Shown here one piece after another: positions 37,846 through 55,177 of a stretch of 64,000 bases of DNA; the stretch's first letter is position 1, and every line of letters begins with the position of its first letter. The DNA comes from Capnocytophaga sp. oral taxon 338 str. F0234 (lineage in GTDB: Bacteria > Bacteroidota > Bacteroidia > Flavobacteriales > Flavobacteriaceae). The stretch spans positions 310,905-374,904 of the forward strand of contig NZ_GL872413.1 of NCBI RefSeq assembly GCF_000192225.1, in the 5' to 3' direction. Below the pieces are notes generated by a model. The model was not told the origin of the DNA. It worked only from the letters and a program-made list of their open reading frames with translations, and ran no database searches. Both the position numbers and the translations under genes were made by a program.

Positions 37846-38958
37846 ATGAATAAATTTTTATTTTTGGCAAGTATTGCTACCCTTATGATAGGGTGTAAAA
37901 AAGGAAACCAGCAAGCAGGGGTTCAGATGGGTATGGAAAAGGAGAAAACATTACCTGTGATCACTGTAACAGAACAGAGTACTACCTCCAATCTTTCCTT
38001 TCCGGTGAATATAGAAGGGGTAGTTAATAGTCCTGTACAAGCAAAAATCTCTGGTTATATTACAAAGGTATTGGTAGATGAAGGGCAGGCAGTTCGTCAA
38101 GGACAACCTATGTTTCAGCTTGAAACACAAACTCTTAACCAATCTGCAGCTTCTGCTAAAGCACAGATAGAAGTAGCCCAAGTAGAGGTGAATAAGCTCA
38201 TTCCTCTGGTAGAAAAGAATATTGTGAGCAAAGTACAACTTGAAACAGCTCAAGCCAACTTACAACGCGCTAAGGCTGCATATAATGAGATCGCAAGCAA
38301 TATAGGCTTTGCAGTAGTAAAGGCTCCTGTAAGTGGGGTAGTAGGGGCTATTTCCTACCGTGAAGGAGCTTTGGTAACCGCTAATAATACAGTGCTTACT
38401 ACTGTTTCCGATGTAAAGGATGTATATGCTTATTTCTCTATGAATGAAAAAGACTATTTAGCTTATTTGGCACAAACCCAAGGGGCTACTGTAAAGGAGA
38501 AAATAGCTAACTTTCCAGAAGTGTCTCTGATATTGGCTAACGGACAGACCTATAACCAAAAAGGGAAGATACAAACAGTTACCGGTCAAATAGATCATAC
38601 CACTGGAGCCATTCAATTTCGTGCGACTTTCCCTAATCCTGATCGCTTGCTCACCAATGGGAATAGTGGAACTATTCTGATTCCGCAAACCTTCGATAAA
38701 TCCTTAGTGATTCCAGAAGTAGCTACTTTTGAGCAACAAGGAAAAGTATTTGCTTATAAAGTAGAAAACGGGACTATCAAGCAAACTGTGATTACTTTAA
38801 GAAGTCGTGCTAATAATTTGGTCGTAGTGAATAGTGGTCTTAAAGCAGGTGATGTAATCATCGTACAAGGGCTTAATGGGGTACGCACTGGCGACAAGGT
38901 AACTCCTCAACCCGTTTCTATGGATAGTATTGTCAAAGCTATTCAACCGATATTCTAA
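37846..38958 (+). CDS. RND efflux periplasmic adaptor (AcrA/MexA type), lipoprotein
   Basis: 370 residues with a lipobox (M-I-G-C) at residue 17. The family order is present: barrel/lipoyl half-motif PVQAKISGYITKVLVDEGQ, an alpha-hairpin (about 95-150, QSAASAKAQIEVAQVEVNKL), the second lipoyl half KAPVSGVVGAI, and the membrane-proximal domain. It should join an inner-membrane RND pump to an outer-membrane channel. Normally the permease and channel genes follow at once; here they are 13 kb and 4 kb away, at 52.0 and 43.2 kb, with other genes between. Confidence 0.92.
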   Translation: MNKFLFLASIATLMIGCKKGNQQAGVQMGMEKEKTLPVITVTEQSTTSNLSFPVNIEGVVNSPVQAKISGYITKVLVDEGQAVRQGQPMFQLETQTLNQSAASAKAQIEVAQVEVNKLIPLVEKNIVSKVQLETAQANLQRAKAAYNEIASNIGFAVVKAPVSGVVGAISYREGALVTANNTVLTTVSDVKDVYAYFSMNEKDYLAYLAQTQGATVKEKIANFPEVSLILANGQTYNQKGKIQTVTGQIDHTTGAIQFRATFPNPDRLLTNGNSGTILIPQTFDKSLVIPEVATFEQQGKVFAYKVENGTIKQTVITLRSRANNLVVVNSGLKAGDVIIVQGLNGVRTGDKVTPQPVSMDSIVKAIQPIF

Positions 38959-39025: not shown

Positions 39026-40003
39026 ATGGATTCTTACAGAACTATTTTTGAGAACAATCGACAGTGGGTGGAGAAGAAGATTCTTTTACTTTTTACATTG
39101 TTTTCTCTGTCTCTCACGGCACAAGTTAAGGAAAACCAAGGCGGAGGTATAAGGGATTTAGGAAAAATTTCTCATAAAGGACAACCCCTTTGTATTGTTG
39201 ATGGAAAGAAATACACCAAGCTCAGAGATAAGTTCAAGAAGCTCCAACCAGAAGATATAGCTCACATAATGGTATTTTATCCAGAAAGGGCAAAAGGTCT
39301 TTTTGGGAGTAGAGCAAAAAATGGGGTGCTATATATCATCACTAAGGAAACTTTTCAGAAAGCAGAAGCACTTGCCAATAATCCACCCAATAGACAATTC
39401 AACCGAAAGGAGCGGCATTATGCAGAGATTTGGGAAATCTATCAAATGCAACAGCCTATAGTGGTTTCAGGGAAAGTTACTGATAAAGAGGGAAATCCCC
39501 TTGCTAATATTAGGGTATATAACAAAGATAGGAATACTGAGACTTATACAGACAGTTTAGGGAATTACACGATCAAAGCTGAACGCTGGGATATGCTGAT
39601 GGTTCATTGTTGTACTTCTTGCAAACTGATTACTGATGAAGAGAAAACTCAAGAAATTAATTTTGTGGGATCATTTGAAGGTACTTATAAAGAAGCAGAG
39701 AAAGCGTATATAGAAGAGATGATAAAGCGGATTCCTCCGAGTGCAATAGTGCAAATTTCAGAGGATCATTGTGCCACACCTCTCTTTGTGTTGGATGGTA
39801 TGGTTATGGACAAGAAGGAGTTCCGAGAGAAAACAAGTAGGTTAAAGATTTCAAAAGAGATTCATTACCTTACTCCAGCAGCAGCTACAGCTATTTGTGG
39901 TTCTGGAGCTATAGATGGGGTATTGGTAGTGGTGACTGAAAAAGCTAAGAGGAAATACGAAAAAAGACAAGCCCGTAAAGATCAGAAAAACAATAAGCTA
40001 TGA
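39026..40003 (+). CDS. Secreted protein with plug-like, carboxypeptidase-regulatory-like and second plug-like domains (copy A)
   Basis: 325 residues as drawn; a GTG at 39068 would give a neater signal peptide (VEKKILLLFTLFSLSLTAQ) and may be the real start. Residues 54-107 resemble the end of a SusC-type TonB receptor plug (V-D-G ... PEDIAHIMVFYPERAKGLFG, S-R-A-K-N-G-V-L-Y-I-I-T). Residues 147-190 are a CarboxypepD_reg-like domain (VSGKVTDKEGNPLANIRVY). Residues 252-306 form a second plug-like unit (VLDGMVMD ... AICGSGAIDGVLVVVTE). A C-C-x-S-C cluster sits between them. No beta-barrel follows, so it is not a receptor. It overlaps copy B by 4 bp. Confidence 0.75.
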   Translation: MDSYRTIFENNRQWVEKKILLLFTLFSLSLTAQVKENQGGGIRDLGKISHKGQPLCIVDGKKYTKLRDKFKKLQPEDIAHIMVFYPERAKGLFGSRAKNGVLYIITKETFQKAEALANNPPNRQFNRKERHYAEIWEIYQMQQPIVVSGKVTDKEGNPLANIRVYNKDRNTETYTDSLGNYTIKAERWDMLMVHCCTSCKLITDEEKTQEINFVGSFEGTYKEAEKAYIEEMIKRIPPSAIVQISEDHCATPLFVLDGMVMDKKEFREKTSRLKISKEIHYLTPAAATAICGSGAIDGVLVVVTEKAKRKYEKRQARKDQKNNKL

Positions 40004-40180
40004 ACAGACTTACTATATTTCTATTCTTTTTTACGCTTTCCACTATGGCACAACAGGTGCAAGATACGCTGGGAAAGGTAAAAACATCTGAAGAGGTGGC
40101 TAATACAAAGATTATTATTGGGCGCCCGAAAAATGCTCTAAAACATTATCCATTGTTTATTGTTGATGGAAAAAAATATA
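40000..40180 (+). repeat. Leader-coding repeat shared by the plug-like gene cluster
   Basis: Near-identical DNA begins four genes: 40000 (about 180 bp), 41450 (about 180 bp), 40512 (about 95 bp) and 42599 (about 55 bp). The shared core encodes the signal peptide. A second repeat pair covers 40344-40506 and 42438-42593. These are substrates for homologous recombination. Confidence 0.75.
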
Positions 40181-40506
40181 AAACAAAAAAACCTGAAGAA
40201 GATATAAAGATAGCTAATGAGGATATAGAAAATGTGGTTGTTTTCCTTCCTCCAGAGGCTAAAAAACGCTTTGATAGGCGTGCCAAATATGGAGTGGTCT
40301 ATATGATTTCTAAGGAAGGATTCCAAAAAGCGAAGGAGATTGCCAGTGAGATAGGCAAACGAAGATTGAACAAGAAAGAGCGCCAATATAGAGAAATCTG
40401 GGAAGTGTACCAATTTAACTTAGCTGAACTATCTAAATTGTCTGACCCTTCCAATCAGTTTGACCCAACCGAAGAACGTAACTCGTCAGAGAAGACTAAA
40501 AACTAA
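40000..40506 (+). CDS. Secreted single plug-like domain protein (copy B)
   Basis: 168 residues with the signal peptide TIFLFFFTLSTMAQ. It contains one plug-like unit: LFIVDGKKYK, then ANEDIENVVVFLPPEAKKRF and RAKYGVVYMISKE. After that comes the R-L-N-K-K-E-R-Q-Y-R-E-I-W-E-V-Y helix also found in copy A, and an Asp/Asn/Glu-rich tail. It lacks the regulatory-like and second plug units. The first 180 bp are nearly identical to the 5' part of the broken copy at 41450. It overlaps copy A by 4 bp (ATGA) and lies 5 bp before copy C. Confidence 0.72.
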   Translation: MNRLTIFLFFFTLSTMAQQVQDTLGKVKTSEEVANTKIIIGRPKNALKHYPLFIVDGKKYKTKKPEEDIKIANEDIENVVVFLPPEAKKRFDRRAKYGVVYMISKEGFQKAKEIASEIGKRRLNKKERQYREIWEVYQFNLAELSKLSDPSNQFDPTEERNSSEKTKN

Positions 40507-40511
40507 CAACT

Positions 40512-41453
40512 ATGCCCCGACTTGCTATATTTTTATTCTTTTTTACGCTTTCCACTATAGCGCAGCAAGTGCAAGATACGCTGGAAAAGGTAAAAACACC
40601 CGAAGAGGATCCTAATATAAATCATGATATAAGGTGTGTGATAGGTTTAAGCCCGCAGCCAGTGTTCTTTTTGGATGGAGAAATATTTGATAATACAAAG
40701 AAAGTAGATGAAGGGAAATCGTTTAAGGCGGAAGATGTAGCTGTGTATCATTTTAGACCGAAAATGTCAGTAAATTTCTTTGGAAAACAAGCAGTAGGTG
40801 GGGCGATATATATAGTAACAAAGGAAGCAGAGAAAAAAATAAAGGAAATACAGCATAAGAAGTTAGGAAAACTGACCCAAGAAGAATACAAATACTACCA
40901 AATAGCACAGATATTGAGAAAAAAGGAATTGCCTATAACAGTAACGGGTAGGGTTACTGATGACGAAGGTAATCCTATCGCTGGCTGTAGAATAGAAAAC
41001 AGAGAAAGAGACGCTGAGGTATATACCGATAGCTTGGGAGAATATGAGATAAAAGCTTGCCGTTGGGATGCTATACTAAGTGAATGTGTAGGGCAGTGCC
41101 GTGTTGTTGTAACCGATAACACAGAACAAACGATGGATTTTGTACGTCCTCCTCTTAAAAAACCTTCTATCAACTATACAACTGTGGGTCTGGTGACGGT
41201 AGGAGGTTCGCCTTGTGATAAGCTTTTTGCCCTTAATGGTAAGCCGATGAAGGATAAAAAGCAATTTCTCAGAAGGATAAAAAACAGTAAGGAGATAGAA
41301 GCCCGTGAGATAGAACAGCAAGAGGCTATAGCGCTTTATGGAACTCAAGGTCGTTTTGGTATTGTAACGGTCAGAGATGAAAAAGGGCGAAAACAAGATA
41401 AAATTTATACAAGAAAATTCAAAAGAAAAATGCGAAAAACACAACAATTATGA
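40512..41453 (+). CDS. Secreted plug-like/regulatory-like/plug-like protein (copy C)
   Basis: 313 residues, same plan as copy A. The signal peptide (IFLFFFTLSTIAQ) matches copy B almost exactly. First plug-like unit: FFLDGEIFD ... FKAEDVAVYHFRPKMSVNFF ... GGAIYIVTKE. Regulatory-like unit: ITVTGRVTDDEGNPIAGCRIE. A C-V-G-Q-C pair follows, then a second plug-like unit with FALNGKPMKD ... AIALYGTQGRFGIVTV. It ends Lys/Arg-rich. It overlaps the next copy by 4 bp, showing that the cluster was built by tandem duplication with coupled translation. Confidence 0.74.
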   Translation: MPRLAIFLFFFTLSTIAQQVQDTLEKVKTPEEDPNINHDIRCVIGLSPQPVFFLDGEIFDNTKKVDEGKSFKAEDVAVYHFRPKMSVNFFGKQAVGGAIYIVTKEAEKKIKEIQHKKLGKLTQEEYKYYQIAQILRKKELPITVTGRVTDDEGNPIAGCRIENRERDAEVYTDSLGEYEIKACRWDAILSECVGQCRVVVTDNTEQTMDFVRPPLKKPSINYTTVGLVTVGGSPCDKLFALNGKPMKDKKQFLRRIKNSKEIEAREIEQQEAIALYGTQGRFGIVTVRDEKGRKQDKIYTRKFKRKMRKTQQL

Positions 41454-41672
41454 CCCGATTTACTATATTTCTATTCTTTTTTACGCTTTCCACTATGGCG
41501 CAACAAGTACAAGATACACTGGGAAAGGTAAAAACATCTGAAGAGGTGGCTAATACAAAGATTATTATTGGGCGCCCGAAAAATGCTCTAAAACATTATC
41601 CATTGTTTATTGTTGATGGAAAAAGATATAAAAATAGATACTGAGGATATAGAACGTATGGTTGTTTCTTTT
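41450..41672 (+). pseudogene. Broken plug-like protein gene, 5' part (copy D)
   Basis: The first 180 bp nearly repeat copy B (signal peptide, V-K-T-S-E-E-V-A-N-T-K, L-F-I-V-D-G). A deletion of about 25 bp relative to copy B then shifts the frame, and a stop follows at 41639-41641. Homology fades near 41672, and its 3' part resumes about 670 bp further on after a methyltransferase gene. Confidence 0.75.
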
Positions 41673-41715
41673 TTCGAATTAGCATAAACTTATAACCTTA
41701 TAAACCCAAAGTAAC

Positions 41716-42282
41716 ATGTTAGATTTTTCATTCTTTACAACCTTTCAATTCGGCTGGCTTAACGCTTGGATACCCGCGTTTGGTATAGTGCTGATACAGT
41801 TTGTTTATATGGTCTTATTCCGCGAAGTGGGCAGGCGTGCGGTAGACACGTCGTGGTATACGTCCAAAGACAGGTTTTGGTCCAGGGTAAGTATGTTTCT
41901 TCAAATTGTGTTGCTTGTGCTTTCGGTCTTTGTCCCGTTTAAGTTGGGCACGCTATGGTTTGTTGTCGGTGCCACGATATTCGCCCTGTCATTAGCCGCC
42001 TTTATCTGGGCATTTCACAGCTATGGCATTGACCCAGCCGGAAAAACCATTAAGAGCGGCATCTATTGTTGGTCACGCAACCCCATGTACCTATTCTTTT
42101 TTACGGCAATGCTTGGAACATGCATTGCCTGCGCCTCGCTTTGGCTGCTCATCGTTACTGTTCCCTTCGGGATTGCGATGCACTTCACCATATTGGGCGA
42201 AGAGCGTTATTGCGAACAAACATACGGGAAAGAATATCTAGAATATAAAGCCAAAACGCCCCGATATCTGCTTTGGGAATGA
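41716..42282 (+). CDS. Isoprenylcysteine carboxyl methyltransferase (ICMT/PEMT)-family membrane protein
   Basis: 188 residues. About four or five transmembrane helices are seen (19-35, 60-75, 80-100, 120-150). The catalytic C-terminal region is clear: GIYCWSRNPMYLFFF, then EERYCEQTYGKEYLEYKAKT, which bind SAM and the lipid substrate in this superfamily. Bacterial members methylate small lipophilic or phospholipid-like molecules; the substrate is unknown. Its codons are visibly richer in G and C (for example GGC, GCC, ACG) than the surrounding genes, and it interrupts the copy D pseudogene. It is therefore probably a recent arrival. Confidence 0.85.
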   Translation: MLDFSFFTTFQFGWLNAWIPAFGIVLIQFVYMVLFREVGRRAVDTSWYTSKDRFWSRVSMFLQIVLLVLSVFVPFKLGTLWFVVGATIFALSLAAFIWAFHSYGIDPAGKTIKSGIYCWSRNPMYLFFFTAMLGTCIACASLWLLIVTVPFGIAMHFTILGEERYCEQTYGKEYLEYKAKTPRYLLWE

Positions 42283-42349
42283 GAAAGATTAACCAAAACT
42301 CATAAGTCATTAAGGATTGACAACAAATCTGTTACATTATAGATGCACT

Positions 42350-42593
42350 ACCACTTATTGGTAGGCATACTAAATATGGAGCCGTCTATATTATCTCTGA
42401 GGAAGAGTCCTAAAAAACAGCAGAAATGGCTAATGAAAAAGGCAAACGAAGATTGAACAAGAAAGAACGACGATATAGAGAAATCTGGGAAGTGTACCAA
42501 TTTTACTTAGCTGAACTATCTAAATTGTCTGACCCTTCCAATCAGTTTGATCCAACTGAAGAACACAACTCGTCAGAGAGGACTAAAAACTAA
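42350..42593 (+). pseudogene. Broken plug-like protein gene, 3' part (copy D)
   Basis: The translated remnant reads A-V-Y-I-I-S-E-E-E-S, a stop, and then K-G-K-R-R-L-N-K-K-E-R-R-Y-R-E-I-W-E-V-Y and the same Asp/Asn-rich end as copy B, closing at TAA 42591-42593. Its DNA is about 90% like 40344-40506 of copy B by eye. It is the missing half of the 41450 fragment. Confidence 0.75.
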
Positions 42594-42598
42594 CAACT

Positions 42599-43138
42599 AT
42601 GACCCGAATTACTATATTTCTATTCTTTTTTACGCTTTCCACTATGGCGCAAATCATCGTATCAGGAAGGGTTTTTGATGAGAAAAAGAAACCTTTCCCT
42701 ACGGCAATAGTATCCAATGGTAGAGAAAAGGTATATACCGATGCCCAAGGAAACTATACTATACAAGCAAAACTATTTGATATTCTCTATTTTGACGGAG
42801 AAACAAAGTTGAAAGGGCGTAAGATAAAGTATGAAGAATACTGTGTGGTAGAGAATACACCTCATCAAGAGTTTAATACAACACTCTATTCGATTCTCTG
42901 GCATAAGTGCGAAAGGGAAACAATTTGTACGTATGGGATTTCCTTTTATCTCAATGATAAAAAAATCACAACAGACAAAGAAGCATTCAAGGAGCATGTG
43001 CGCAACGGAGAGTTTTATACCTATGAGATACGCACTTGCAATGAACTTCCCGAAACTATAGAAAAGCTCTCTCGGTATACTGTCCTTGTCTATACTGAAG
43101 ATTACTATAACCAACATATCAAAGATAAACAAAAATAA
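42599..43138 (+). CDS. Secreted protein with carboxypeptidase-regulatory-like domain (copy E)
   Basis: 179 residues. The first 17 codons repeat the common leader (TIFLFFFTLSTMAQ), but the mature part begins at once with a regulatory-like unit (IIVSGRVFDEKKKPFPTAIV ... VYTDAQGNYTIQAK), followed by a Cys-containing region (HKCERETICTYG) and a weaker second plug-like end (FYLNDKKITTDKEAF ... YTVLVYTEDY). The leader appears to have been joined to a different body by recombination. It is the last gene of the plug-like block, 57 bp before the outer-membrane factor gene. Confidence 0.7.
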   Translation: MTRITIFLFFFTLSTMAQIIVSGRVFDEKKKPFPTAIVSNGREKVYTDAQGNYTIQAKLFDILYFDGETKLKGRKIKYEEYCVVENTPHQEFNTTLYSILWHKCERETICTYGISFYLNDKKITTDKEAFKEHVRNGEFYTYEIRTCNELPETIEKLSRYTVLVYTEDYYNQHIKDKQK

Positions 43139-43195: not shown

Positions 43196-44593
43196 ATGAA
43201 CAGAATCATTTATAAAGGTTTCGCAGCGGCTTTTGTAGCCCTTACCCTTACCGCTTGTGCAGGTCGCAAAACTTACGAGCGTCCCAATGTCGTAAATGAA
43301 AAACTTTTCCGTACGGATAATATCTCTACGGATAGTCTTAGTAGTGCCAATGTCTCTTGGCGCAATATCTTCACCGACCCGCTCTTGCAACAACACATCA
43401 GCAAGGCACTTTCTAATAATCTCGATGTGCGTGTAGCGATGCAAAATGTGGTTTCAGCACAAGCCTACCTCAAACAAAGTAAGGCAGCTTTTATTCCTAC
43501 CCTCTCGGTAGGAGCTAACTATACTCGTAGCACCTCTTCATTGAATGCCGGAGGTGGAGCTTCCGACCGTACTTACAACAATCTATTCGATATCACAGGT
43601 AACGCTTCGTGGGAAGCCGACATATGGGGCAAGCTATCCGCTCAAAAACGCGCTTCTTATGCTTCTTACCTCGCTACGGTAGAGGCACAAAAAGCAGTAC
43701 AGTCCGAAGTGGTAGCTACCTTAGCAACGGCTTATTACCAACTTTTGATGCTCGACGAACAGAAAAAAGTACTCGAACAAACTATTGAGTTTCGTACCAA
43801 AAGTTTAGAAACTACCAAACAACTCAAAAAAGCAGGTTCTACTACCGAAGTAGCAACCAAACAAATCGAAGCACTCGTATACAACGCACAGGCGCAACTC
43901 ATTACTATCAACAATAGCGTTTGGGCATTGGAGAACACCATCTGTGTACTCTTGGGGGAAGAGCCTCATACGATAGAGCGAAGCACGCTTGCTGAACAAC
44001 AATTCCCCACACAGTTTCATCAAGGGTATGCGGTAAGTCTGCTCGAAAATCGTCCTGATGTGGCACGTGCCGAACTGAACTTGCGCAACGCCTTTGAACT
44101 TACGAATGTAGCGCGTTCCAATTTCTATCCTACGCTTACTCTTTCCGCTCGTGGAGGTATCAGTAGTACCGAACTCGATACTTGGTTTTCTGCCAAATCA
44201 ATGTTTGCTAATTTTATAGCAGGATTGGCGCAACCTATCCTCAATCGCCGACAAATTCGCACCCAATACGAAGTGCAGAAAGCTGCTCAAGAAACCGCTT
44301 TGCTGAATTTCAAAAAAGCAATTCTTTCAGCGGGCAAAGAAGTATCCGATGCAATGCGTCAATTTAGTTCGCAAGACGAATTCATTCAACTCAAAACCCA
44401 AGAAATGAAAGCCTATCAAGATGCCACCGACTATTCCAAACAATTGTTCGATAGCGGTATGGTGAATTATTTAGAGGTCATTACAGCCGAAGTAAACCGT
44501 CTCAATGCCGAGCTTAGTGTAGCCAACGCACAGTTTACCCGTATGCAGTATGGCATTACCTTGTATAAAGCCCTTGGTGGCGGTTGGAGGTAG
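43196..44593 (+). CDS. RND efflux outer-membrane factor (TolC/OprM/NodT type) lipoprotein
   Basis: 465 residues with a lipobox (T-A-C) after MNRIIYKGFAAAFVALTL. Two OEP repeats are seen: one starting LLQQHISKALSNNLDVRVAM and one around LLENRPDVARAELNLRNAF. The barrel strands and periplasmic helices (QLKKAGSTTEVATKQIEALV) are typical, as is the C-terminal GGGWR. It forms the exit channel for an RND pump. Its codon use is more GC-rich than that of the adaptor (37846) and permease (52019), suggesting a different history. It is followed by a hairpin repeat. Confidence 0.92.
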   Translation: MNRIIYKGFAAAFVALTLTACAGRKTYERPNVVNEKLFRTDNISTDSLSSANVSWRNIFTDPLLQQHISKALSNNLDVRVAMQNVVSAQAYLKQSKAAFIPTLSVGANYTRSTSSLNAGGGASDRTYNNLFDITGNASWEADIWGKLSAQKRASYASYLATVEAQKAVQSEVVATLATAYYQLLMLDEQKKVLEQTIEFRTKSLETTKQLKKAGSTTEVATKQIEALVYNAQAQLITINNSVWALENTICVLLGEEPHTIERSTLAEQQFPTQFHQGYAVSLLENRPDVARAELNLRNAFELTNVARSNFYPTLTLSARGGISSTELDTWFSAKSMFANFIAGLAQPILNRRQIRTQYEVQKAAQETALLNFKKAILSAGKEVSDAMRQFSSQDEFIQLKTQEMKAYQDATDYSKQLFDSGMVNYLEVITAEVNRLNAELSVANAQFTRMQYGITLYKALGGGWR

Positions 44594-44709: not shown

Positions 44710-45450
44710 ATGACAACAAGAGAAAACATTCAAGAATTGAACGACCATTTACAGGCGTTCCCAAAGGCAGAAGACATCTTTACGAAAGACCAACAATGGC
44801 TCAGAAAGCATTTTCTGCCCCTGATGAGTATCGATTTGGCAGAAATCAACCCCGATTGGGCGGGACAAAAAGTGTATATGTTATGCCCTTTTGAGGCGAA
44901 TATAGGATATATGGGGGGAAACACTACCGAATATCACAATCAATACACTGCCCCTAACTGGATAACATTCAAACTCACCGATGATAACAAGTTTGAGTTC
45001 TTAGGGAACGAAGGATTTTTTGAAAGAACTAAATATCATAACTGGGATTTCAATTCCGAAGAAGAAAAGGAATTTCAAGAAATGCAGAAAGGCTACGAGA
45101 AAAGTAAAGCAAATTTCGAGAAATACGGTTCATTGGTGAGCTTACAGTTTCCTGAATATGATGGGAAACCTAACTTTACTAAATTTTTAGATATATTAGG
45201 AGGACATATAATAGGAGGAAATTGGGTAGGTACAATTAGTAGTAAAGAATATCCAAAGGCTTTTGATATGAAATTAGATTATGAAGATGAAGATTCTGAT
45301 AAATGGATTAAAATTTCCTATCAAGGAAACCCCTTTTACTTTGTAGCAAGTACTCCTAACTATAGTTGGTGTGATGGGCATATCGATGCTATCATTATGC
45401 TTTACGAGCCCGTAAGTCGTATCGTGCTATTCACTTTTGATTATTCATAA
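44710..45450 (+). CDS. Unrecognised protein, immunity-like duplicate (copy 1)
   Basis: 246 residues, acidic, no signal peptide. I do not recognise a named family. It shares its first 80 residues (FPKAEDIFTKDQQWLRKHFL) and last 20 (IMLYEPVSRIVLFTFDYS) almost exactly with the next gene, while residues about 140-215 differ strongly. Tandem cytoplasmic copies with conserved ends and a variable middle fit the pattern of immunity proteins for polymorphic toxins, also suggested by the SMI1/KNR4-like neighbours. That role is inference. Confidence 0.6.
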   Translation: MTTRENIQELNDHLQAFPKAEDIFTKDQQWLRKHFLPLMSIDLAEINPDWAGQKVYMLCPFEANIGYMGGNTTEYHNQYTAPNWITFKLTDDNKFEFLGNEGFFERTKYHNWDFNSEEEKEFQEMQKGYEKSKANFEKYGSLVSLQFPEYDGKPNFTKFLDILGGHIIGGNWVGTISSKEYPKAFDMKLDYEDEDSDKWIKISYQGNPFYFVASTPNYSWCDGHIDAIIMLYEPVSRIVLFTFDYS

Positions 45451-45474
45451 CATCGTTTTTGTGGTATGCGTAGG

Positions 45475-45492
45475 GGCGAATTGCAATTCGCC
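45475..45492. repeat. GC-rich hairpin repeat (copy 2)
   Basis: An 18-bp perfect palindrome, GGCGAATTGCAATTCGCC, preceded by TAGG. It lies between the duplicated 246-residue genes and matches copy 1 in its arms. Confidence 0.65.
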
Positions 45493-45523
45493 TTAAATTC
45501 ATAAACCTTAAATAATTATCATT

Positions 45524-46264
45524 ATGCAATCAAGAGAAAACATTCAAGAATTGAACGACCATTTGCAGGCGTTCCCAAAGGCAGAAGACATCTTTACGAA
45601 AGACCAACAATGGCTCAGAAAACATTTTCTGCCCTTGATGAGTATCGATTTGGCAGAAATCAACCCCGAATGGGCAGGGCAAAAGGTATATATGCTCAGT
45701 CCGTTTGAGCCTTACGAGGTTTATATAGGCTATAATACTACCGAATATCATAATGAATATACTGCTACGAATTGGTTAGCCTTTAAATTGACTGATGATA
45801 ATAAGTTTGAGTTTCTGGGAAAAGAAGGATTTTTTGAAAGAACAGCCATTCACGACTGGGATTTCAATTCCGAAGAAGAAAAGGAATTTCAAGAAATGCA
45901 GAAAGGCTACGAGAAAAGTAAAGCAAATTTTGAAAAATACGGTTCATTAATTAATTTATATTCTCCTGAATACGACGGAAAAATGAATAAAGTGAACTAC
46001 TTAAACAGATTGGGGGGAGATATATGGGACGGAAATTGGACTACAACTATTGAAAGTGATGAGTATCCGAAAGCATTTGATATGAAAATAGAAATAGGTA
46101 ATGACCTCCCTAACGATGGGATTAGTATAACCTATCAAGGAAATCCTTTCTATTTTATTGCAGAAACGGCAAGCTACGATTGGTACGGTGGCGGTATCGA
46201 TGCTATCATTATGCTTTACGAGCCTGTAAGCCGTATCGTGCTATTCACTTTTGATTATTCGTAA
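45524..46264 (+). CDS. Unrecognised protein, immunity-like duplicate (copy 2)
   Basis: 246 residues, the same length as the preceding gene and clearly its duplicate. The N-terminal third and the C-terminal 20 residues are nearly identical; the segment SLINLYSPEYDGKMNKVNYL and what follows to about 215 have diverged. No signal peptide. It is separated from copy 1 by the palindromic repeat, which may have been involved in the duplication. Confidence 0.6.
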   Translation: MQSRENIQELNDHLQAFPKAEDIFTKDQQWLRKHFLPLMSIDLAEINPEWAGQKVYMLSPFEPYEVYIGYNTTEYHNEYTATNWLAFKLTDDNKFEFLGKEGFFERTAIHDWDFNSEEEKEFQEMQKGYEKSKANFEKYGSLINLYSPEYDGKMNKVNYLNRLGGDIWDGNWTTTIESDEYPKAFDMKIEIGNDLPNDGISITYQGNPFYFIAETASYDWYGGGIDAIIMLYEPVSRIVLFTFDYS

Positions 46265-46333
46265 ATTGATTAAGCAATTTGAATATATTAACAATTTAAT
46301 TAAATCATTAATTGCCCGTGCGGCTCGTATCGA

Positions 46334-46873
46334 ATGAAGACACTCATTATAGTAACACACCCTCATATAGAGGATTCTCTCATCAACAAACGTTGGATTG
46401 AGGAGCTCGAGAAATACCCAAAGCAATATACCATACATCAGTTGTACAAAGTATACCCCGACGAACATATCGACGTCAGGAAGGAACAACAACTGATAGA
46501 GCAGTACGACCACATTGTATTTCAGTTTCCGCTCTATTGGTTTAGTATGCCCCCATTGTTAAAGAAATGGCAAGACGAAGTCCTTACCTACGGTTGGGCT
46601 TACGGGAGAAAAAGCGGTTATAAAGTAGGTGGCAAAAAGGTAACGCTTGCCATTTCGGCAGGTATTGATGAGCGTGAATATGCGCATAACGAAAAATATA
46701 AATACACCCTTAAGGAATTGTTGCGTCCTTTTGAACTCACATTCGAATACATTCACGCCGATTTTCGTCCGTTTTTTGCCTATTACGGCATCGAGATGAA
46801 CAGTACAACCAAATGGATAGAGAGAAGTGTACCATTATATAGGCAGTTTTTAGAAGAATTTGCTAAACAATAA
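46334..46873 (+). CDS. NAD(P)H-dependent quinone reductase / flavodoxin-fold oxidoreductase (KefF/MdaB-like)
   Basis: 179 residues, cytoplasmic. The family signature FQFPLYWFSMPPLLKKWQDE (about residues 59-78), followed by VLTYGWAYG, is the FMN/quinone site of KefF- and NQO-type enzymes. The N-terminal TLIIVTHPH starts the Rossmann-like flavodoxin fold. Such proteins carry out two-electron reduction of quinones or nitro compounds. It lies among immunity-like genes with no obvious functional link and its own spacing (69 bp upstream). Confidence 0.88.
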   Translation: MKTLIIVTHPHIEDSLINKRWIEELEKYPKQYTIHQLYKVYPDEHIDVRKEQQLIEQYDHIVFQFPLYWFSMPPLLKKWQDEVLTYGWAYGRKSGYKVGGKKVTLAISAGIDEREYAHNEKYKYTLKELLRPFELTFEYIHADFRPFFAYYGIEMNSTTKWIERSVPLYRQFLEEFAKQ

Positions 46874-47007
46874 TTAGTTTATATATCTTTTCAAAGTTTT
46901 AAATCTTAAAGTTTAACACTTCTGACGGCTAATTTAGACAGAAAATCAAGGCTTTTGGTACGTTTGTTGTGGCATTATTTCTTAACAAATCATAACCGAG
47001 ATTCATT

Positions 47008-47760
47008 ATGAATAAAAGAATTAAAGGACTTGCTATTGCAAGTTTACAGAACCACGAACATTACGGGTTCGTAACCGAAGTGAAATTGGCGTTAGAACAA
47101 GCCAATATTGAATCGCTCGCTACCCTTTTGGGTAAGTTTACGCCTTTGGTAGAGGAGGAAAACAAATCGCTTGAGGTGGTTGCCAAGAGTGAACACACGC
47201 ATCGCTTGAAAGAATTAGACCGCAATCGCGACAATATGTTTCGAGGGCTTTCGGCTTGCGTGAACGAAGCCTATTACAGTCCTACGAAAGAGGAACGCGA
47301 GGCGGCAGTGCTTATTAAGATATTGCTCAAAACCTATGGCAATATCATTTCCGAGAGTTTCGAGTCGCAACACAGCAAGACACAAAACCTCATTCAAGAC
47401 CTTCGCGCCGATAAGTATGCGGCAGCGGTTAAGAAGATTTCGTTAGCGCGATGGGTGAATTGGCTTGAAGAAGCCGAGAACACCTTTATGGAGCTTTACC
47501 GAACACGCCGCGATGAGCGGGCTTCTACTATCGCAGGGACTCGCGCACTCAGGCTCATTCGCAAAGACATCGATGTGGTATATCGCGAAATCATTATGCA
47601 TCTCAATGCTCTTGCTGTGATACAACCCACCGAAGCCCTTAATCAGCTTATTGCACGTATCAATATTCATATTGATAAGCTCGTAGCGCTGAAAGCAAGT
47701 AGGTCTACACGTGCCAAAAAGAATCCCAAAACGGCAAGCAACGGCACCAAAGAGAGTTAA
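47008..47760 (+). CDS. DUF6261 family protein
   Basis: 250 residues, all-helical in appearance, basic C-terminus (SRSTRAKKNPKTASNG). The pattern of residues 150-230 (RDERASTIAGTRALRLIRK, then long helices) matches the DUF6261 proteins often seen in multiple copies in Bacteroidota genomes. No enzymatic motif; the function is unknown. A large inverted-repeat structure follows within 26 bp. Confidence 0.72.
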   Translation: MNKRIKGLAIASLQNHEHYGFVTEVKLALEQANIESLATLLGKFTPLVEEENKSLEVVAKSEHTHRLKELDRNRDNMFRGLSACVNEAYYSPTKEEREAAVLIKILLKTYGNIISESFESQHSKTQNLIQDLRADKYAAAVKKISLARWVNWLEEAENTFMELYRTRRDERASTIAGTRALRLIRKDIDVVYREIIMHLNALAVIQPTEALNQLIARINIHIDKLVALKASRSTRAKKNPKTASNGTKES

Positions 47761-47785
47761 AAACAACTCATTTACACGTATCAAC

Positions 47786-47823
47786 GGTACGTAAATTATT
47801 CAACAAAGAGTAATTTACGTACC
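47786..47823. terminator. Strong inverted repeat after the DUF6261 gene
   Basis: A 13-bp perfect stem (GGTACGTAAATTA, 47786-47798, with TAATTTACGTACC, 47811-47823) and a 12-base loop. Outer arms CGTATC (47777-47782) and GATACG (47829-47834) extend it. Only a short T-run follows, so it may be a bidirectional terminator or a larger recombinational element. Confidence 0.6.
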
Positions 47824-47906
47824 TTTACGATACGTTGAGTAGTGTTTTGAGATGTGATTTGTTATCTTGATGATATATTAATGTATTATTTAGAACAATG
47901 TTTTAT

Positions 47907-48536
47907 ATGAAAAATATATTATTAATATTAGTTTTAAGTGTATTTTCTCTAAGTTATGCACAGAATAAAAATACTAAAAAAATGGAAAAACAAGTGTATA
48001 TAGTACACGGATATGGCGCCACACCCGATAATCATTGGTTTAAGTGGTTAGAAGAAGAATTAAAAAAGCATAAAATTAAAGCCTATCGTGTTGCAATGCC
48101 TTCTCCTGATAATCCAAACGTTGATGATTGGATAGCAACACTTAAAAAACAGGTGAATGTAACACCTCAAACAGTAATAGTAGCGCATAGCTTGGGTACG
48201 ATTACTACTCTGGATTTCCTATTGGAGAGCAAAAAAGAACCTAAAGGTATCGTACTCGTATCGGGATTTTATGAACCAGTGCCCAATTTCGAGAGCTTAA
48301 ACCCATTTGTAGAGAAGTTTTCAAGTTCCAAACATTTGCCAATGGTAGGTAAAGCAGTGGTTATTTCGGCTATAGATGATGATATAGTACCCACTCAGCT
48401 AAGTGATAATCTCTCTCGCTTGCTCAATTGTGAGTTTATTCGTCTTCCACAAGGGAAACACTTCCTCGACCGAGGAGGATATACTGAATTTCCATTAGTG
48501 AGAGATAAAGTATTAGATATCTTTAATGAGAAATAA
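47907..48536 (+). CDS. RBBP9/YdeN-family serine hydrolase, exported
   Basis: 209 residues from the ATG at 47907, which begins a neat signal peptide (MKNILLILVLSVFSLSYAQ); an ATG at 47898 would add three residues. The hydrolase part starts KQVYIVHGYGATPDNHW, has the nucleophile motif VAHSLGT, the acid in SAIDDDIVP and the C-terminal GKHFLDRGG histidine, the RBBP9/YdeN arrangement. Most family members are cytoplasmic, so the signal peptide is unusual. The substrate is unknown. It is 9 bp upstream of the SMI1/KNR4-like pair. Confidence 0.85.
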   Translation: MKNILLILVLSVFSLSYAQNKNTKKMEKQVYIVHGYGATPDNHWFKWLEEELKKHKIKAYRVAMPSPDNPNVDDWIATLKKQVNVTPQTVIVAHSLGTITTLDFLLESKKEPKGIVLVSGFYEPVPNFESLNPFVEKFSSSKHLPMVGKAVVISAIDDDIVPTQLSDNLSRLLNCEFIRLPQGKHFLDRGGYTEFPLVRDKVLDIFNEK

Positions 48537-48545
48537 CAACAAATT

Positions 48546-49091
48546 ATGCCCAACATCTTATTGCAACAATTAGAAAACGCACTTCCCACAGGAATGCAAA
48601 TCCCCGAAGAACTTCGCCAACTCTATCAGTGGATAGAAGGTAATGGCTATTATGAGGACAGAGACGATGGTGTACGTTACGGATATCTGTATCCTAAAAA
48701 TCCTTTTAGGAATACATACCTAGATGACGTAAACGTAGATATCGATATTGCTTTTTATATGGAAGAAGAAAACTTTCGTAAAGAACTCTTAACCATTTCT
48801 TTTGGTAAGAATGCCGACGATGCCGCCCAGCGTTTTTTGCAAATAGCCGAAAATATATATAATGGTTCTATGGTAGCTTTGTGGTTGGACTACAGAGGAA
48901 CAACCCAAATAGTCCGTTGTGTGAATACGGTTGAAGAGACAGGCAACTGGGAAGTGGTAAAAAAGCAATTGAATTTCAATAAAGTATCTATTCGCGCAAA
49001 AGGAATAGATATTTTTGTACCAATGGGCTCAGAGGATAATGGCTTAAATGATGATTTTGAAGGTTGGTATGATGCGATGATGTATGAATAA
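48546..49091 (+). CDS. SMI1/KNR4-like (SUKH) immunity protein, shortened copy
   Basis: 181 residues. The N-terminal 70 residues (IPEELRQLYQWIEGNGYYED) are the SUKH start and are almost the same as those of the next gene. The C-terminal part has lost about 40 residues relative to that copy (the segment around LRLLAIGYDEICWDEYYPLP is missing). SUKH proteins neutralise polymorphic toxins in the cytoplasm. The deletion may be functional divergence or decay. No toxin gene lies next to it. Confidence 0.75.
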   Translation: MPNILLQQLENALPTGMQIPEELRQLYQWIEGNGYYEDRDDGVRYGYLYPKNPFRNTYLDDVNVDIDIAFYMEEENFRKELLTISFGKNADDAAQRFLQIAENIYNGSMVALWLDYRGTTQIVRCVNTVEETGNWEVVKKQLNFNKVSIRAKGIDIFVPMGSEDNGLNDDFEGWYDAMMYE

Positions 49092-49103
49092 TCGTAAAGA
49101 AAA

Positions 49104-49775
49104 ATGAAAAATATTTTATTACAACAATTAGAAAATGCCCTCCCTGAGGGAATGCAAATCCCTGAGGAACTCCGCCAACTCTATCAGTGGATAGAGGACA
49201 ATGGTTATTATGAGGACAGAGATGGCGTGCGTTATGGCTATCTATATCCACAAGATAAGCTAAGAGATAGCTGGAAAGAGGACGAACGTGAAGGCGGTAC
49301 TGATATTTCGTTTTATGTGGCAAAACTCTCAGAACGTGAGGAGCTGTTAGAGATTTCTTTCGGGAAACATAAGGGGGAAACTGCACAGCGTTTGCTTTCC
49401 TTTGCACAGAGCGGAGGGGATGGTTCGGAATGTGCCCTATGGCTCGACGATGAAGGGCGTACCCAAATCGTGCATATCGGGTCGGGTTCAGGCTCTATGA
49501 TGACCTGTATATTGGTGAAAAACGCCTTGGATTTCTTGCGCCTTTTAGCCATTGGTTATGATGAAATTTGTTGGGACGAGTATTATCCACTCCCTCCTAA
49601 CAGTGATAAGAACGAAATGTTCGTCCACCCCAATACACAATACCAAGAGTGGGTGCAAAATACGTTTCATACCACTATCCCCGCAATAGGATTAGAAGTG
49701 GTAACCCCTCATAGTATGGACGATGAAGCAACCGATGACCCTTTTTTAAATTGGTTTTATGAGATGACAGAATAA
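49104..49775 (+). CDS. SMI1/KNR4-like (SUKH) immunity protein
   Basis: 223 residues with the full SUKH layout: IPEELRQLYQWIEDNGYYED near the start, a central ISFGKHKGETAQRLL, an ALWLDDEGRTQIVHIGSG strand and the FLRLLAIGYDEICWDEYYPL helix of this superfamily. It is a duplicate of the preceding gene, 12 bp apart. Cytoplasmic; its presumed partner toxin is not visible in the window. Confidence 0.8.
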   Translation: MKNILLQQLENALPEGMQIPEELRQLYQWIEDNGYYEDRDGVRYGYLYPQDKLRDSWKEDEREGGTDISFYVAKLSEREELLEISFGKHKGETAQRLLSFAQSGGDGSECALWLDDEGRTQIVHIGSGSGSMMTCILVKNALDFLRLLAIGYDEICWDEYYPLPPNSDKNEMFVHPNTQYQEWVQNTFHTTIPAIGLEVVTPHSMDDEATDDPFLNWFYEMTE

Positions 49776-49788
49776 TCATAAAAAGAAA

Positions 49789-50397: not shown

Positions 50398-50418
50398 CCA
50401 ATATATAAACACAACAGA

Positions 50419-51139: not shown

Positions 51140-51181
51140 AGAATGAAAGAGGAAATGTATTAGAATTTTAAATATATAATA

Positions 51182-52018: not shown

Positions 52019-55000
52019 ATGATAAAGAATTTTATTAACAGACCGGTATTATCAACGGTAATTTCTATCTTGATAGTCATCTTAGGGATCTTAGGAATTA
52101 TTTCTTTACCTATTTCCCAATACCCTGAAATTGCGCCACCTACAGTACAAGTAAGTGCCAGCTACGGAGGTGCCAATGCTGAAACGGTACTTAAGGCGGT
52201 GGTGATTCCTTTGGAAGAACAGATCAACGGGGTGGAAAATATGGACTATATTACTTCTTCCGCTTCCAATAGTGGTAGGGCAAGTATCACCGTATATTTT
52301 AAACATGGTACCAATGCCGATAATGCAGCGGTAATGGTGCAGAACCGAGTATCCTATGCTAATGCAATTCTTCCTGCTGAGGTAAAACAAGCAGGGGTAA
52401 CCGTGGAGAAACGCACATCTGGAAATCTTATGTTCCTTTCCTTCTTCTCCGAAAATCCAGAGTTGGATGATGTATTTTTGCAAAACTATTTGAGTATTAA
52501 CGTAATCCCTGCTCTTAAGCGTATCAATGGAGTAGGAGATGCCGATGTGTTTGGTGCCAAAACTTATTCCATGCGCGTATGGTTGGATCCTCAAAAACTC
52601 CAAGCCTATAAGCTGAACCCTACGGAAGTTACTGCAGCGATCTCTGCTCAAAGTTTGGAAGCTGCTGCGGGTACTTTGGGGCAAAATAGTGGGGGATCCT
52701 ATGAATATGTGATCAAGTATAAAGGGAAATATAACCAAGTCTCTGAGTATGAGAATGTAGTTATTAAGGCTTTGGATGGCGGACGGGTACTTCGGTTAAA
52801 GGATGTTGCCAAGGTAGAGCTTGATGCTCTTACTTTCTCCAGCTTTGCTGAGAGTAAAGGGCGCCCTGCCGTTTCTATGGGGATTTCCCAGACTCCTGGC
52901 GCCAATGCTCATGAGGTGGTACAGAATATTGACAAATACCTTAAATCTATTGAGAAAACCCTCCCTGAAGGAATTACTTATTCTATCAACTTTAATGTAA
53001 ATACTTTCTTGGATGCTGCGATTTCTAAAGTGGTTTCTACTCTTTTGGAAGCCTTCCTTTTGGTGTTCCTTGTGGTGTATGTTTTCTTACAGGATTTTCG
53101 TTCCACACTGATTCCTGCCATAGCCGTACCAGTCTCTATTGTGGGTACCTTCTTCTTCTTGAATCTCTTTGGTTATTCTATCAATATGCTTACTTTGTTT
53201 GCTTTGGTATTGGCTATTGGTATTGTGGTAGATGATGCCATTGTGGTGGTCGAGGCTGTCCATGCCAAGATGGAACAGACTCATGAGAAGGCAAAGCCAG
53301 CGACTATTTCAGCGATGAATGAAATAACAGGAGCTATTATCTCCATTACCTTGGTGATGGCGGCAGTATTCGTGCCTGTAACTTTTATCAGTGGTACCAC
53401 AGGGGTATTCTATAAGCAGTTTGGGATTACCTTGATTGTGGCAATTATTATTTCAGCTATTAATGCGCTTACCCTGAGTCCAGTATTGTGTTCTCTCTTT
53501 CTTAAGCCTCATGGAGATAAGGAATATGAGAAAAAATCTTGGATAGGTAAGTTTTTTCACAAGTTCAACATTGCCTTCAATACCGCTACGCTCAAGTACG
53601 GACAGACTTTTACTTTCTTCCTTCGTCATAAGTGGATTACCTTAGTGCTTTTTGCGATAGCAGGAGGAGGAATTTATTATGCTAATAAGAACCTACAATC
53701 GGGCTTTGTACCCAGTGAAGACCAAGGATTTGTGATGATGAATGTGGAACTTATTCCAGGAGCTTCTATGGAGCGTACTGCCAATGTGCTGAGAGAAGCC
53801 AGCAAAACCCTTAGTGATATTCCCGGAGTTGCCAACTTTACCTATATTACGGGGAATGGGATGCTCTCTGGGTCAGGTAGTAATAATGGTATGGGCTTCT
53901 TTACCCTCAAACCTTTCGAGGAGCGTGCCAAACATCCTGATCAAAGTATTCAAGCTATTATAGGCAAAGCCTTTGCAAGTGTTGCTCATATTAAGGATGC
54001 ACGATTTCTCTTCTTCCAACCACCTTCTGTAGCAGGATTCGGTATAAGTAATGGAGTCTCTCTTGTGTTACTTAATAAGTCCGGTGATGAGATTAGTCAG
54101 GTGAGTAAAACTACTCAACAGTTCATGGACGCTCTTATGAAACGACCTGAGATACAATATGTTCAGACATCCTTTAACACTAATTATCCACAGTATCAAA
54201 TGGATATTAATGTAGAGCGAGCTATGCAATCAGGAATTTCGGTAAGTTCTATTCTCTCCACCTTACAGAATTACATTGGAGGCTTTTATGCTACTGACTT
54301 TACCCTTTATGGGAAGCAGTACCGTGTAATGGTGCAATCTTTACCAGAATCACGTAAGGATATAAATAGCCTTAATGGGCTCTTTGTGAGAGCAGGAAAT
54401 GGTGAGATGGCTCCTATTTCAGAATTTGTAACATTGAATCGAGTATTTGGTCCTCAATCTTTGAGTCGTTATAACCTCTTTACTTCTGTTTCTATTTCAG
54501 CAAATAGCAATCCTGGTTACAGTACAGGAGATGCTGTAAAAGCTGTAGAAGAAGTTGCTGCTCAAACCCTTAATTCTAACTATGGTATAGATTATACAGG
54601 GCTTACTCGTGAGGAGCAGAACGCAGGAACACAAACTATTATCATCTTCATGCTCAGCTTGATATTTACTTATTTTATTCTTTCTGCTCAGTATGAAAGT
54701 TATCTTTTACCACTTTCAGTACTCATGTCCTTACCTTTTGGGATCTTTGGTGCCTTCTTAGGACAATGGCTCTTTGGTTTGGAGAATAATATTTACTTCC
54801 AAATATCACTCATTATGTTGATAGGACTCTTGGCGAAGAATGCGATTTTGATAGTGGAGTTTGCTGTACAGAGGCGACGACATGGGGAAAGCCTTTCTAA
54901 AGCGGCGATTAATGCAGCAATGGCACGTTTACGTCCTATTTTAATGACCTCTTTTGCCTTTATTGTAGGATTGATGCCTTTGGTATTTGCCACTGGAGTT

Positions 55001-55177
55001 GGTTCATCAGGGAACCGTTCTGTCGCTACAGGAGCTGCTGCAGGACAGCTTATTGGGACTTTCTTTGGATTGGTAGTCATCCCTGTACTCTTTGTGATCT
55101 TCCAACACTTACAAGAACGCATTAGCGGTACTGAGCAAAAAGAGGAAATCTTTGTCTCTCCTACCAATAATTATTAG
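52019..55177 (+). CDS. RND efflux permease (AcrB/MexB, HAE1 type)
   Basis: 1052 residues, normal length. Twelve transmembrane helices flank two large periplasmic loops. Transmembrane helix 4 contains ALVLAIGIVVDDAIVVVEAV with the paired proton-relay Asp residues, and the helix 10-12 half shows LIGLLAKNAILIVEFAVQ. FSTFAESKGRPAVSMGIS-like segments and GFVPSEDQGF belong to the porter domain. The pump would expel drugs or detergents through the adaptor (37846) and outer-membrane factor (43196), which are separated from it by 13 and 7.4 kb. A terminator hairpin follows 23 bp downstream. Confidence 0.95.
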   Translation: MIKNFINRPVLSTVISILIVILGILGIISLPISQYPEIAPPTVQVSASYGGANAETVLKAVVIPLEEQINGVENMDYITSSASNSGRASITVYFKHGTNADNAAVMVQNRVSYANAILPAEVKQAGVTVEKRTSGNLMFLSFFSENPELDDVFLQNYLSINVIPALKRINGVGDADVFGAKTYSMRVWLDPQKLQAYKLNPTEVTAAISAQSLEAAAGTLGQNSGGSYEYVIKYKGKYNQVSEYENVVIKALDGGRVLRLKDVAKVELDALTFSSFAESKGRPAVSMGISQTPGANAHEVVQNIDKYLKSIEKTLPEGITYSINFNVNTFLDAAISKVVSTLLEAFLLVFLVVYVFLQDFRSTLIPAIAVPVSIVGTFFFLNLFGYSINMLTLFALVLAIGIVVDDAIVVVEAVHAKMEQTHEKAKPATISAMNEITGAIISITLVMAAVFVPVTFISGTTGVFYKQFGITLIVAIIISAINALTLSPVLCSLFLKPHGDKEYEKKSWIGKFFHKFNIAFNTATLKYGQTFTFFLRHKWITLVLFAIAGGGIYYANKNLQSGFVPSEDQGFVMMNVELIPGASMERTANVLREASKTLSDIPGVANFTYITGNGMLSGSGSNNGMGFFTLKPFEERAKHPDQSIQAIIGKAFASVAHIKDARFLFFQPPSVAGFGISNGVSLVLLNKSGDEISQVSKTTQQFMDALMKRPEIQYVQTSFNTNYPQYQMDINVERAMQSGISVSSILSTLQNYIGGFYATDFTLYGKQYRVMVQSLPESRKDINSLNGLFVRAGNGEMAPISEFVTLNRVFGPQSLSRYNLFTSVSISANSNPGYSTGDAVKAVEEVAAQTLNSNYGIDYTGLTREEQNAGTQTIIIFMLSLIFTYFILSAQYESYLLPLSVLMSLPFGIFGAFLGQWLFGLENNIYFQISLIMLIGLLAKNAILIVEFAVQRRRHGESLSKAAINAAMARLRPILMTSFAFIVGLMPLVFATGVGSSGNRSVATGAAAGQLIGTFFGLVVIPVLFVIFQHLQERISGTEQKEEIFVSPTNNY

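Follow-up and report, generated by a model that had tools for sequence, protein, structure and literature searches.

The DNA that we analysed, hereafter the window, is a stretch of 64,000 nucleotides from Capnocytophaga sp. oral taxon 338 str. F0234, whose genome (2.55 Mb) is assembled in 29 contigs. Between positions 39026 and 43138 it carries a tandemly duplicated gene family whose products are built from two modules related to SusC: a half-plug, which by alignment represents only the C-terminal half of the plug domain of a TonB-dependent transporter, and an immunoglobulin-like (Ig) domain resembling the N-terminal extension (NTE) of SusC. The interval comprises open reading frames (ORFs) A, B and C, a broken copy D with a methyltransferase gene inside it, and E. 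The family ORFs encode 168-325 amino acids, and all copies run co-directionally on the plus strand between the membrane fusion protein (MFP) and outer membrane factor (OMF) genes of a resistance-nodulation-division (RND) efflux cluster. An initial annotation had recognised one tandem family here, with the order plug-like, regulatory, plug-like in A and C and a single plug-like unit in B; searches within the genome, where A matches C at E 2e-34 and B at 1.4e-23, agree with this, each plug-like unit being a half-plug. The copies and their parts are as follows.

39026..40003, plus strand: copy A, with signal peptide, half-plug 1, helical linker, NTE-like regulatory domain and half-plug 2 (ORF, Pfam, hhalign, structure model, NCBIfam)
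39179..39361, plus strand: half-plug 1 of A, approximate (A-type profile against solved SusC plugs; structure matches 6z9a_B and 6zlt_B)
39455..39664, plus strand: NTE-like (CarboxypepD_reg) domain of A, approximate (PF13715; structure match 9hfj)
39608..39622, plus strand: CCTSC of A (sequence; Cys 178, 179 and 182 of the 308-residue form)
39767..39946, plus strand: half-plug 2 of A, approximate (hhalign to SusC plug; TIGR04057)
40000..40506, plus strand: copy B, signal peptide and single half-plug (ORF; start overlaps the stop of A)
40512..41453, plus strand: copy C, half-plug, regulatory domain, half-plug, with CVGQC at residues 192-196 (ORF, homology)
41450..41644, plus strand: copy D, a truncated, broken copy of B (198 nt aligned with B at 93.9% identity; start overlaps the stop of C)
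42358..42594, plus strand: 3' remnant of copy D, B-like, with an internal stop codon (87% DNA identity to the 3' part of B)
42599..43138, plus strand: copy E, signal peptide, NTE-like domain and probable divergent half-plug (hhalign to A-type; AlphaFold2 model; 9hfj match to the first domain)

The relation to SusC is supported by profile comparison. When ten A/B/C-type proteins were compared by hhalign with eight SusC N-termini of the genus, the regulatory domain paired with the NTE and the second half-plug with the C-terminal part of the plug (99.1%), while the N-terminal half of the plug and most of the intervening stretch, including the part that bears the TonB box, were skipped. A was matched over three stretches by the SusC/RagA model TIGR04056 (E 2e-20; 72.8 bits, where the cut-off is 368). 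Those with a place on the model, at positions 141-206 (A), 1-42 (C) and 3-48 (E) of 981, are all periplasmic, two of the three in A being unplaced. The SusC signature TIGR04057 was found below its cut-off in A (1.3e-5, residues 282-304 of the 325-residue ORF), and the regulatory domain of A scored just below the PF13715 cut-off (1.8e-7, 31.6 bits against 32.2). Pfam scores for the NTE-like domain lie below cut-off throughout the family, and B has no such domain. Against PF07715, A aligned over positions 46-107 only, far below cut-off (E 0.11); the clearer half-plugs of the genus cover positions 40-107 and 53-107. SusC plugs were among the solved structures reached by the A-type profile (8aa4, 7.1e-10; 5t3r, 1e-9). 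No NCBIfam model scored above cut-off for A, B, C or E, and no M56 peptidase match was found in them by Pfam at E <= 1. As the initial annotation had stated, no β-barrel follows: the Pfam and NCBIfam matches of A, B, C and E include no barrel family.

Structural comparison points in the same direction. In the AlphaFold model of A (pLDDT 66, pTM 0.41) the strand-helix-strand order is alike at both half-plugs. A structure search (VIA) aligned residues 126-201 of A with the SusC NTE 9hfj (Z 6.6, rmsd 3.2, 71 residues aligned), residues 25-95 with 6z9a_B, the plug of BT1763 (Z 4.1, rmsd 2.6, 63 aligned, 35% identity) and half-plug 1 with 6zlt_B (Z 4.0). With Z values this modest, the matches depend on support from the sequence; those to 9hfj and 6z9a_B nevertheless indicate a fold that is not unrelated to SusC. 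The first domain of the E model (AlphaFold2; pLDDT 74.6, pTM 0.67) matched 9hfj with Z 12.8 (rmsd 2.5, 78 aligned). The listed rows of this search cover neither half-plug 2 of A nor the half-plug of E, which proves nothing. E had been annotated as a regulatory-like unit, and an NTE-like domain is indeed present, but a divergent half-plug appears to accompany it: hhalign of A-type against E-type profiles (99.8%, columns 127-287) ties the second half of E to half-plug 2. The alignment of E-type with SusC profiles covers the regulatory domain only, which counts against a half-plug in E. The kinship with SusC-type plugs that had been proposed thus stands by sequence and partly by fold, but for the C-terminal half of the plug only. 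Compared with the SusC/RagA TonB-dependent transporters (TIGR04056; PF13715, PF07715, PF00593), the family shares the NTE-like Ig domain and the C-terminal half-plug, by profile and partly by fold; it differs in having neither the barrel nor the N-terminal half of the plug, and in having an extra half-plug before the NTE-like domain.

The proteins are most probably exported, as the signal peptides read by eye on the family members indicate, in agreement with the initial annotation. No Cys directly follows the signal peptide of A, B, C or E (by eye), so that they do not look like lipoproteins, and no type IX secretion system (T9SS) sorting-domain model is among the NCBIfam matches. The Cys clusters that had been highlighted exist, CCTSC in A and CVGQC in C, but they do not recur widely: among the nine full-length proteins CCTSC is found in three and CVGQC in one. 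A Cys in the regulatory domain and another just ahead of half-plug 2 are common to all nine. The suggestion that the proteins could bind TonB was not supported as far as a TonB box is concerned: the TonB-box pattern was absent from all ten A/B/C-type rows and occurred in one of eleven E rows, near the C-terminus, a weak test, as the same pattern detected only four of eight SusC controls. We consider it very unlikely that these proteins are TonB decoys or competitors, as the initial annotation had proposed, perhaps acting through the NTE-like domain. In favour of that idea, the NTE precedes the TonB box in SusC, growth on levan is lost when it is deleted, and it has been suggested to have a role in TonB specificity, according to passages of PMC7782687.

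The full-length genes are maintained. Nonsynonymous to synonymous ratios (pN/pS) were calculated for the first full-length gene of each carrier in 15 pairs among six genomes, each of another species, and ranged from 0.21 to 0.60 in 15/15 pairs; those of the flanking genes were 0.08-0.27 (MFP) and 0.08-0.23 (OMF), and A was higher than both in every pair. Open counterparts with a signal peptide exist in five other species, making six in all. The counterparts in G011, G007 and G012 list one stop within the aligned stretch because the alignment extends beyond their shorter C-termini; the ORFs themselves are open. A is 30-35% identical to the receptors of its own genome, where every one of the 18 Plug matches (E up to 0.1) falls in an open frame of at least 715 residues. 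The identity of no more than 35%, the pN/pS values and the length of these Plug frames rule out recent fragments of SusC, the possibility that would have undone the earlier description. In the count of homologues in its own genome A has nine matches at E <= 0.001, of which four are receptors in frames of more than 1000 residues and the rest, without a barrel, all belong to this locus. That the genes are decaying and functionless pieces of SusC receptors is unlikely. Copy D is broken and interrupted, and pN/pS exceeds that of the flanking genes, as decay would have it; the frames with signal peptide are open in six species, however, the identity and pN/pS values given above count against decay, and the order of half-plug followed by regulatory domain, unlike that of SusC, recurs in another genus.

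We searched 20 genomes of the genus, and A-type genes were found in six of them (the window genome, G018, G013, G011, G007 and G012), in 6/6 cases between the MFP and OMF genes; in G007 and G012 a carbonic anhydrase gene accompanies them there. At the 14 MFP loci of non-carriers, read by eye, OMF comes next in eight, RND in three and something else in two, and G008 is distinct, with a flavodoxin-type gene and an E-like gene ahead of OMF. When the nine full-length proteins (A-, C- and chimaeric types) were split at the start of the regulatory domain, each module proved to occur in an A kind and a C kind, window C standing apart from both (20-31% identity in the first module, 34-45% in the second). 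In G011_1, G007_1 and G012_1 an A-kind first module (53-79% identical to the three A-types) is joined to a C-kind second module (78-85% identical to G013_2 and G011_2, only 43-46% to the A-types). For example, the first module of G011_1 has 79% identity to that of G018_A, and its second has 82% to that of G013_2 versus 46% to that of G018_A. Synonymous differences, in a table of the proteins other than window C, follow the same pattern: 0.33 in the first and 0.58 in the second module for G018/G011_1, and 0.70 and 0.32 for G013_2/G011_1. Three of nine full-length genes are thus chimaeric, and therefore the modules recombine, although three chimaeras need not be three events, since G007_1 and G012_1 are 96-98% identical. 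Relationships are also discordant: A is nearest to G018 and G013, MFP to G007 and G012. Synonymous divergence (pS) is lower for A than for MFP in 14/15 pairs and than for OMF in 11/15, a comparison that mixes A-type and chimaeric genes, with MFP near saturation, and serves only as a sign of discordant histories. A phage or plasmid origin was considered and rejected, as the tblastn matches of A, in six phage records (22% of the query) and in 18 plasmid records (56% of it or less), were all partial and stayed short of 80% coverage.

The patchy distribution, the tandem arrangement, the shuffled modules and the discordant histories would all suit laterally exchanged immunity proteins, which would neutralise an incoming toxin in the periplasm by mimicking part of SusC and leave the receptor untouched. 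SMI1/KNR4 (SUKH) genes can be immunity genes, and SMI1/KNR4-like and zeta-toxin-like genes lie nearby. Nevertheless, no toxin linked to the cassette was noticed (no PADLOC search was made), and the SMI1/KNR4-like genes do not track it, so that we regard this explanation as unlikely.

Half-plugs without a barrel recur in the phylum, which qualifies the initial statement that no such system has been described; the tandem barrel-less family itself was not found described in the open-licence literature searched, judged mostly from listings. In the large samples the best 8 or best 6 candidates per genome were scored. The A-type search reached 2 of 299 genomes of the family at 1e-12 (the window genome and G047, with a DUF4139 protein) and 8 of 395 genomes of the phylum at 1e-10 (among them G565, with a 182-residue frame), with all three domains matched only in the window genome; for those samples and candidates, the full A/C architecture is present only in this genus. 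A form with two half-plugs was found at 1e-17 in 5 of 148 phylum genomes, not including the window genome, and because of this low number we do not call it common. A scan of named genomes, which reaches close relatives only, returned just C. sputigena NCTC11653, the counterpart of G018, and L067 (Prevotella), the latter rejected as an ordinary SusC. When the genus was searched with three two-half-plug proteins, the matches listed included further frames of 177-192 and 456-560 residues, and four matches in the window genome whose positions are unplaced. Three of the 456-560-residue frames read as M56-type with a C-terminal half-plug, one of them confirmed by Pfam (L097, M56 2.3e-9 with a C-terminal Plug) and the other two recognised from an HExxH-type motif seen by eye (L100, L101). 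Pfam Plug is above cut-off in L042, L043, L045 and L097. These two-half-plug and M56/BlaR1 proteins resemble the family in having half-plugs and no barrel; they differ in that those scanned have no NTE-like domain and, where their surroundings were read, lie outside the efflux cluster. Outside the genus we noticed M56-like half-plug proteins (L118 and L120, by eye) and a DUF4139 protein with NTE and half-plug (L069).

Several further arrangements were observed. Two genomes of one other genus of the same family encode 400-residue proteins (L115:1480-2679 and L117:835-2058), each a single gene in the stretch read, with the same order of half-plug and then regulatory domain as A but a different, unnamed C-terminal part in place of half-plug 2; the half-plug was recognised by the A-type profile and by eye, and Pfam shows only the regulatory domain in L115. 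At L116:387-3585 a vWA/YfbK-type protein has at its front an NTE, a stretch resembling a TonB box (by eye) and a half-plug, and its gene adjoins one whose product ends in units like half-plugs (by eye; Pfam gives no match). L121:541-2022 is a row of an extracytoplasmic function (ECF) sigma gene, a likely anti-sigma gene (by eye) and a gene for a secreted two-half-plug protein. The two-half-plug protein L045:1269-1814 has a weak match, below cut-off, to the TssR N-terminal domain (1.9e-4), through which a tie of the half-plug to type VI secretion parts is possible. The Plug of the F. johnsoniae T9SS is a SprA plug protein (passages of PMC7463736).

Such contexts suggest that the proteins might be periplasmic sensing or signalling adaptors, their half-plugs being envelope-sensing interaction modules and the set sensing or tuning the efflux genes. 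The half-plugs at the C-terminus of M56 proteins and the sigma factor row of L121 speak for this. However, no M56 or sigma family is among the scanned neighbours of the cassette, the closest regulator noticed being MarR-like (6.8e-6, just below cut-off) and encoded two genes upstream of MFP, and both shuffling and the absence of A-type genes from 14 of 20 genomes would be unusual for a signalling part. We consider this explanation possible but doubtful.

The explanation that we prefer, tentatively and at less than even confidence, is that these proteins, in the periplasm, jam SusC-type transporters from the inner side, in the manner of phage T5 Llp on FhuA. The kinship with SusC, the constant place of A-type genes in the efflux cluster, the pN/pS values and the exchange of modules speak for it. 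For mapping the half-plug onto BtuB we took mature numbering to apply, with a presumed signal peptide of 20 residues. By linear mapping via PF07715 positions 55-107, the half-plug would correspond roughly to residues 73-136 of BtuB, the plug part that resists pulling by TonB (passages of PMC5413942). Deletion of the NTE of SusC leads to no growth on levan (passages of PMC7782687). Binding of Llp to the FhuA plug from the periplasmic side blocks phage T5, and Llp is also told to give resistance to phage phi80, colicin M and albomycin (passages of PMC9586334); the Llp and Cor exclusion lipoproteins are phage-encoded and are likened to the family by role, as small periplasmic jammers at a transporter plug, and not through sequence comparison. 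The secreted YjbI of Caulobacter affects both TonB-dependent receptors and the AcrAB-NodT efflux pump (PMC12864828), and because it affects both it offers a parallel for a secreted protein tying import to efflux. From these observations we infer that A, C and E may act on SusC-type transporters from the periplasm. The mature proteins would stay soluble in the periplasm, where the half-plug and NTE-like modules would recognise the periplasmic face of SusC-type transporters, or whatever handles that face, and the occupied site would hold the transporter shut or jammed. Toxic cargo that uses SusC-type receptors, such as a bacteriocin, phage or drug, would be kept out, and the pump of the same cluster would export what got in. 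The role would then be one of gate-closing or exclusion, with module shuffling adapting the set to different receptors. A bolder proposal, which we hold as doubtful, is that the half-plug is an autonomous, mobile periplasmic interaction domain, part of a Bacteroidota toolkit, and that the Capnocytophaga shuffled cassette encodes receptor-specific gate-closers tied to efflux.

Several observations weigh against jamming. The model of A is poor overall, and Foldseek on it gave nothing at E <= 0.001, the top rows being the receptor Cir and SusC chains. No TonB box was seen in A, B, C or E, for what the weak pattern test is worth. Constraint on A is weaker than on the flanking genes, since its pN/pS is higher in 15/15 pairs, and the link of E-type genes to the efflux cluster is not absolute, because G008 has E-like genes at two other loci. 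Two SMI1/KNR4-like genes and one zeta-toxin-like gene between OMF and RND were counted in favour of jamming, but carriers G018 and G011 have no SMI1/KNR4-like gene between OMF and RND, and two look-alikes follow the OMF gene of G010 (by eye), a non-carrier. Half-plugs in M56 proteins and beside an ECF sigma gene fit signalling as well. Finally, the isolated full FepA plug behaved as unfolded (Usher 2001, as told in passages of PMC11658791).

The proteins might instead be accessory to the β-barrel assembly machinery (BAM), analogous to BamP, and act on insertion of outer membrane proteins through the NTE-like domain. BamP (NF053692) is likewise secreted, and the N-terminal stretch of its model weakly matches the regulatory domain of A (5.2e-4) and E (0.02); furthermore, the E model matched chain E of 9n2d, the F. 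johnsoniae extended BAM (a chain not tied to BamP), with Z 9.1 (rmsd 3.1, 80 aligned). This match is, however, level with many Ig/TTR-type rows, A and E score 19.5 and 14.3 bits on NF053692, where the cut-off is 230, which rules out that A and E are BamP at that cut-off, and the genome has a separate full-length BamP-like gene (C1:1192744-1193487, 75.3 bits). All matches to the BamP model in the 20 genomes, this one included, lie below cut-off. The hallmark of BamP is binding to BamA POTRA 4/5 with a linker threaded into the barrel, and the family here has half-plugs. We judge the BAM explanation improbable.

The other features of the locus are given below.

37846..38958, plus strand: MFP (HlyD/AcrA-type) gene, upstream flank (Pfam HlyD_D23 3.3e-15; a single match per genome in the 20 of the genus at E <= 1e-60)
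39026..39079, plus strand: initial 18 codons of a beta-carbonic anhydrase gene whose remainder is deleted, in frame with A (47/54 nt identical to L041 can, 46/54 to L040 can)
41716..42282, plus strand: PEMT/ICMT-type phospholipid methyltransferase gene inside the remains of D (PF04191 7.3e-12; GC 0.464)
43196..44593, plus strand: OMF (TolC/OprM-type) gene, downstream flank (PF02321 1.2e-41)
52019..55177, plus strand: RND pump (ACR_tran 1040.8 bits; 83% identity to the RND that immediately follows OMF in G018)

A single operon for the copies is suggested by the overlap of the start of B with the stop of A and of the start of D with the stop of C; co-transcription with the efflux genes is assumed. 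In the 54 nt of signal-peptide codons of B, C, D and E, 46-53 positions are identical, consistent with duplication or conversion via the 5' ends. The alignment of the 3' remnant of D to B covers 42358-42651 (87% over 294 nt) and reaches into the start of E. The GC content of the methyltransferase gene compares with 0.333-0.382 in the copies and 0.450 in the OMF gene itself. In the window the stretch 44710-51931 separates OMF from RND by 7.4 kb, whereas in G018 and G011 RND directly follows OMF; it contains the two SMI1/KNR4-like genes, the zeta-toxin-like gene, DUF6261, serine hydrolase, flavodoxin-type and short-chain dehydrogenase genes, and two copies of an unnamed 246-amino-acid family.

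The 5' end of A records a separate event. A whole carbonic anhydrase gene occupies the same place in G007 and G012, and the L041 can gene is a clear member of its family (Pro_CA 2.9e-50). The window genome has no PF00484 match, while the other 19 of the 20 genus genomes have exactly one. Because A carries the can remnant and this match is missing, the deletion that gave A its long N-terminus probably removed the only beta-carbonic anhydrase of the genome, the search being of the beta class and a gap in the assembly being possible. C. ochracea is described as CO2-requiring (PMC3035226), and the loss may bear on the CO2 requirement of the organism.

If half-plugs fold and bind alone, a domain regarded as part of a transporter would be a periplasmic module open to reuse. 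Closure of import gates by the cassette, together with export by the pump, would, if real, link permeability with efflux in Bacteroidota, and the shuffling of its modules would suggest that SusC-type receptors are the object of an arms race. Should there be no gate-closing role, the case still shows that barrel-less 'plug domain' proteins can be maintained genes and not truncated receptors.

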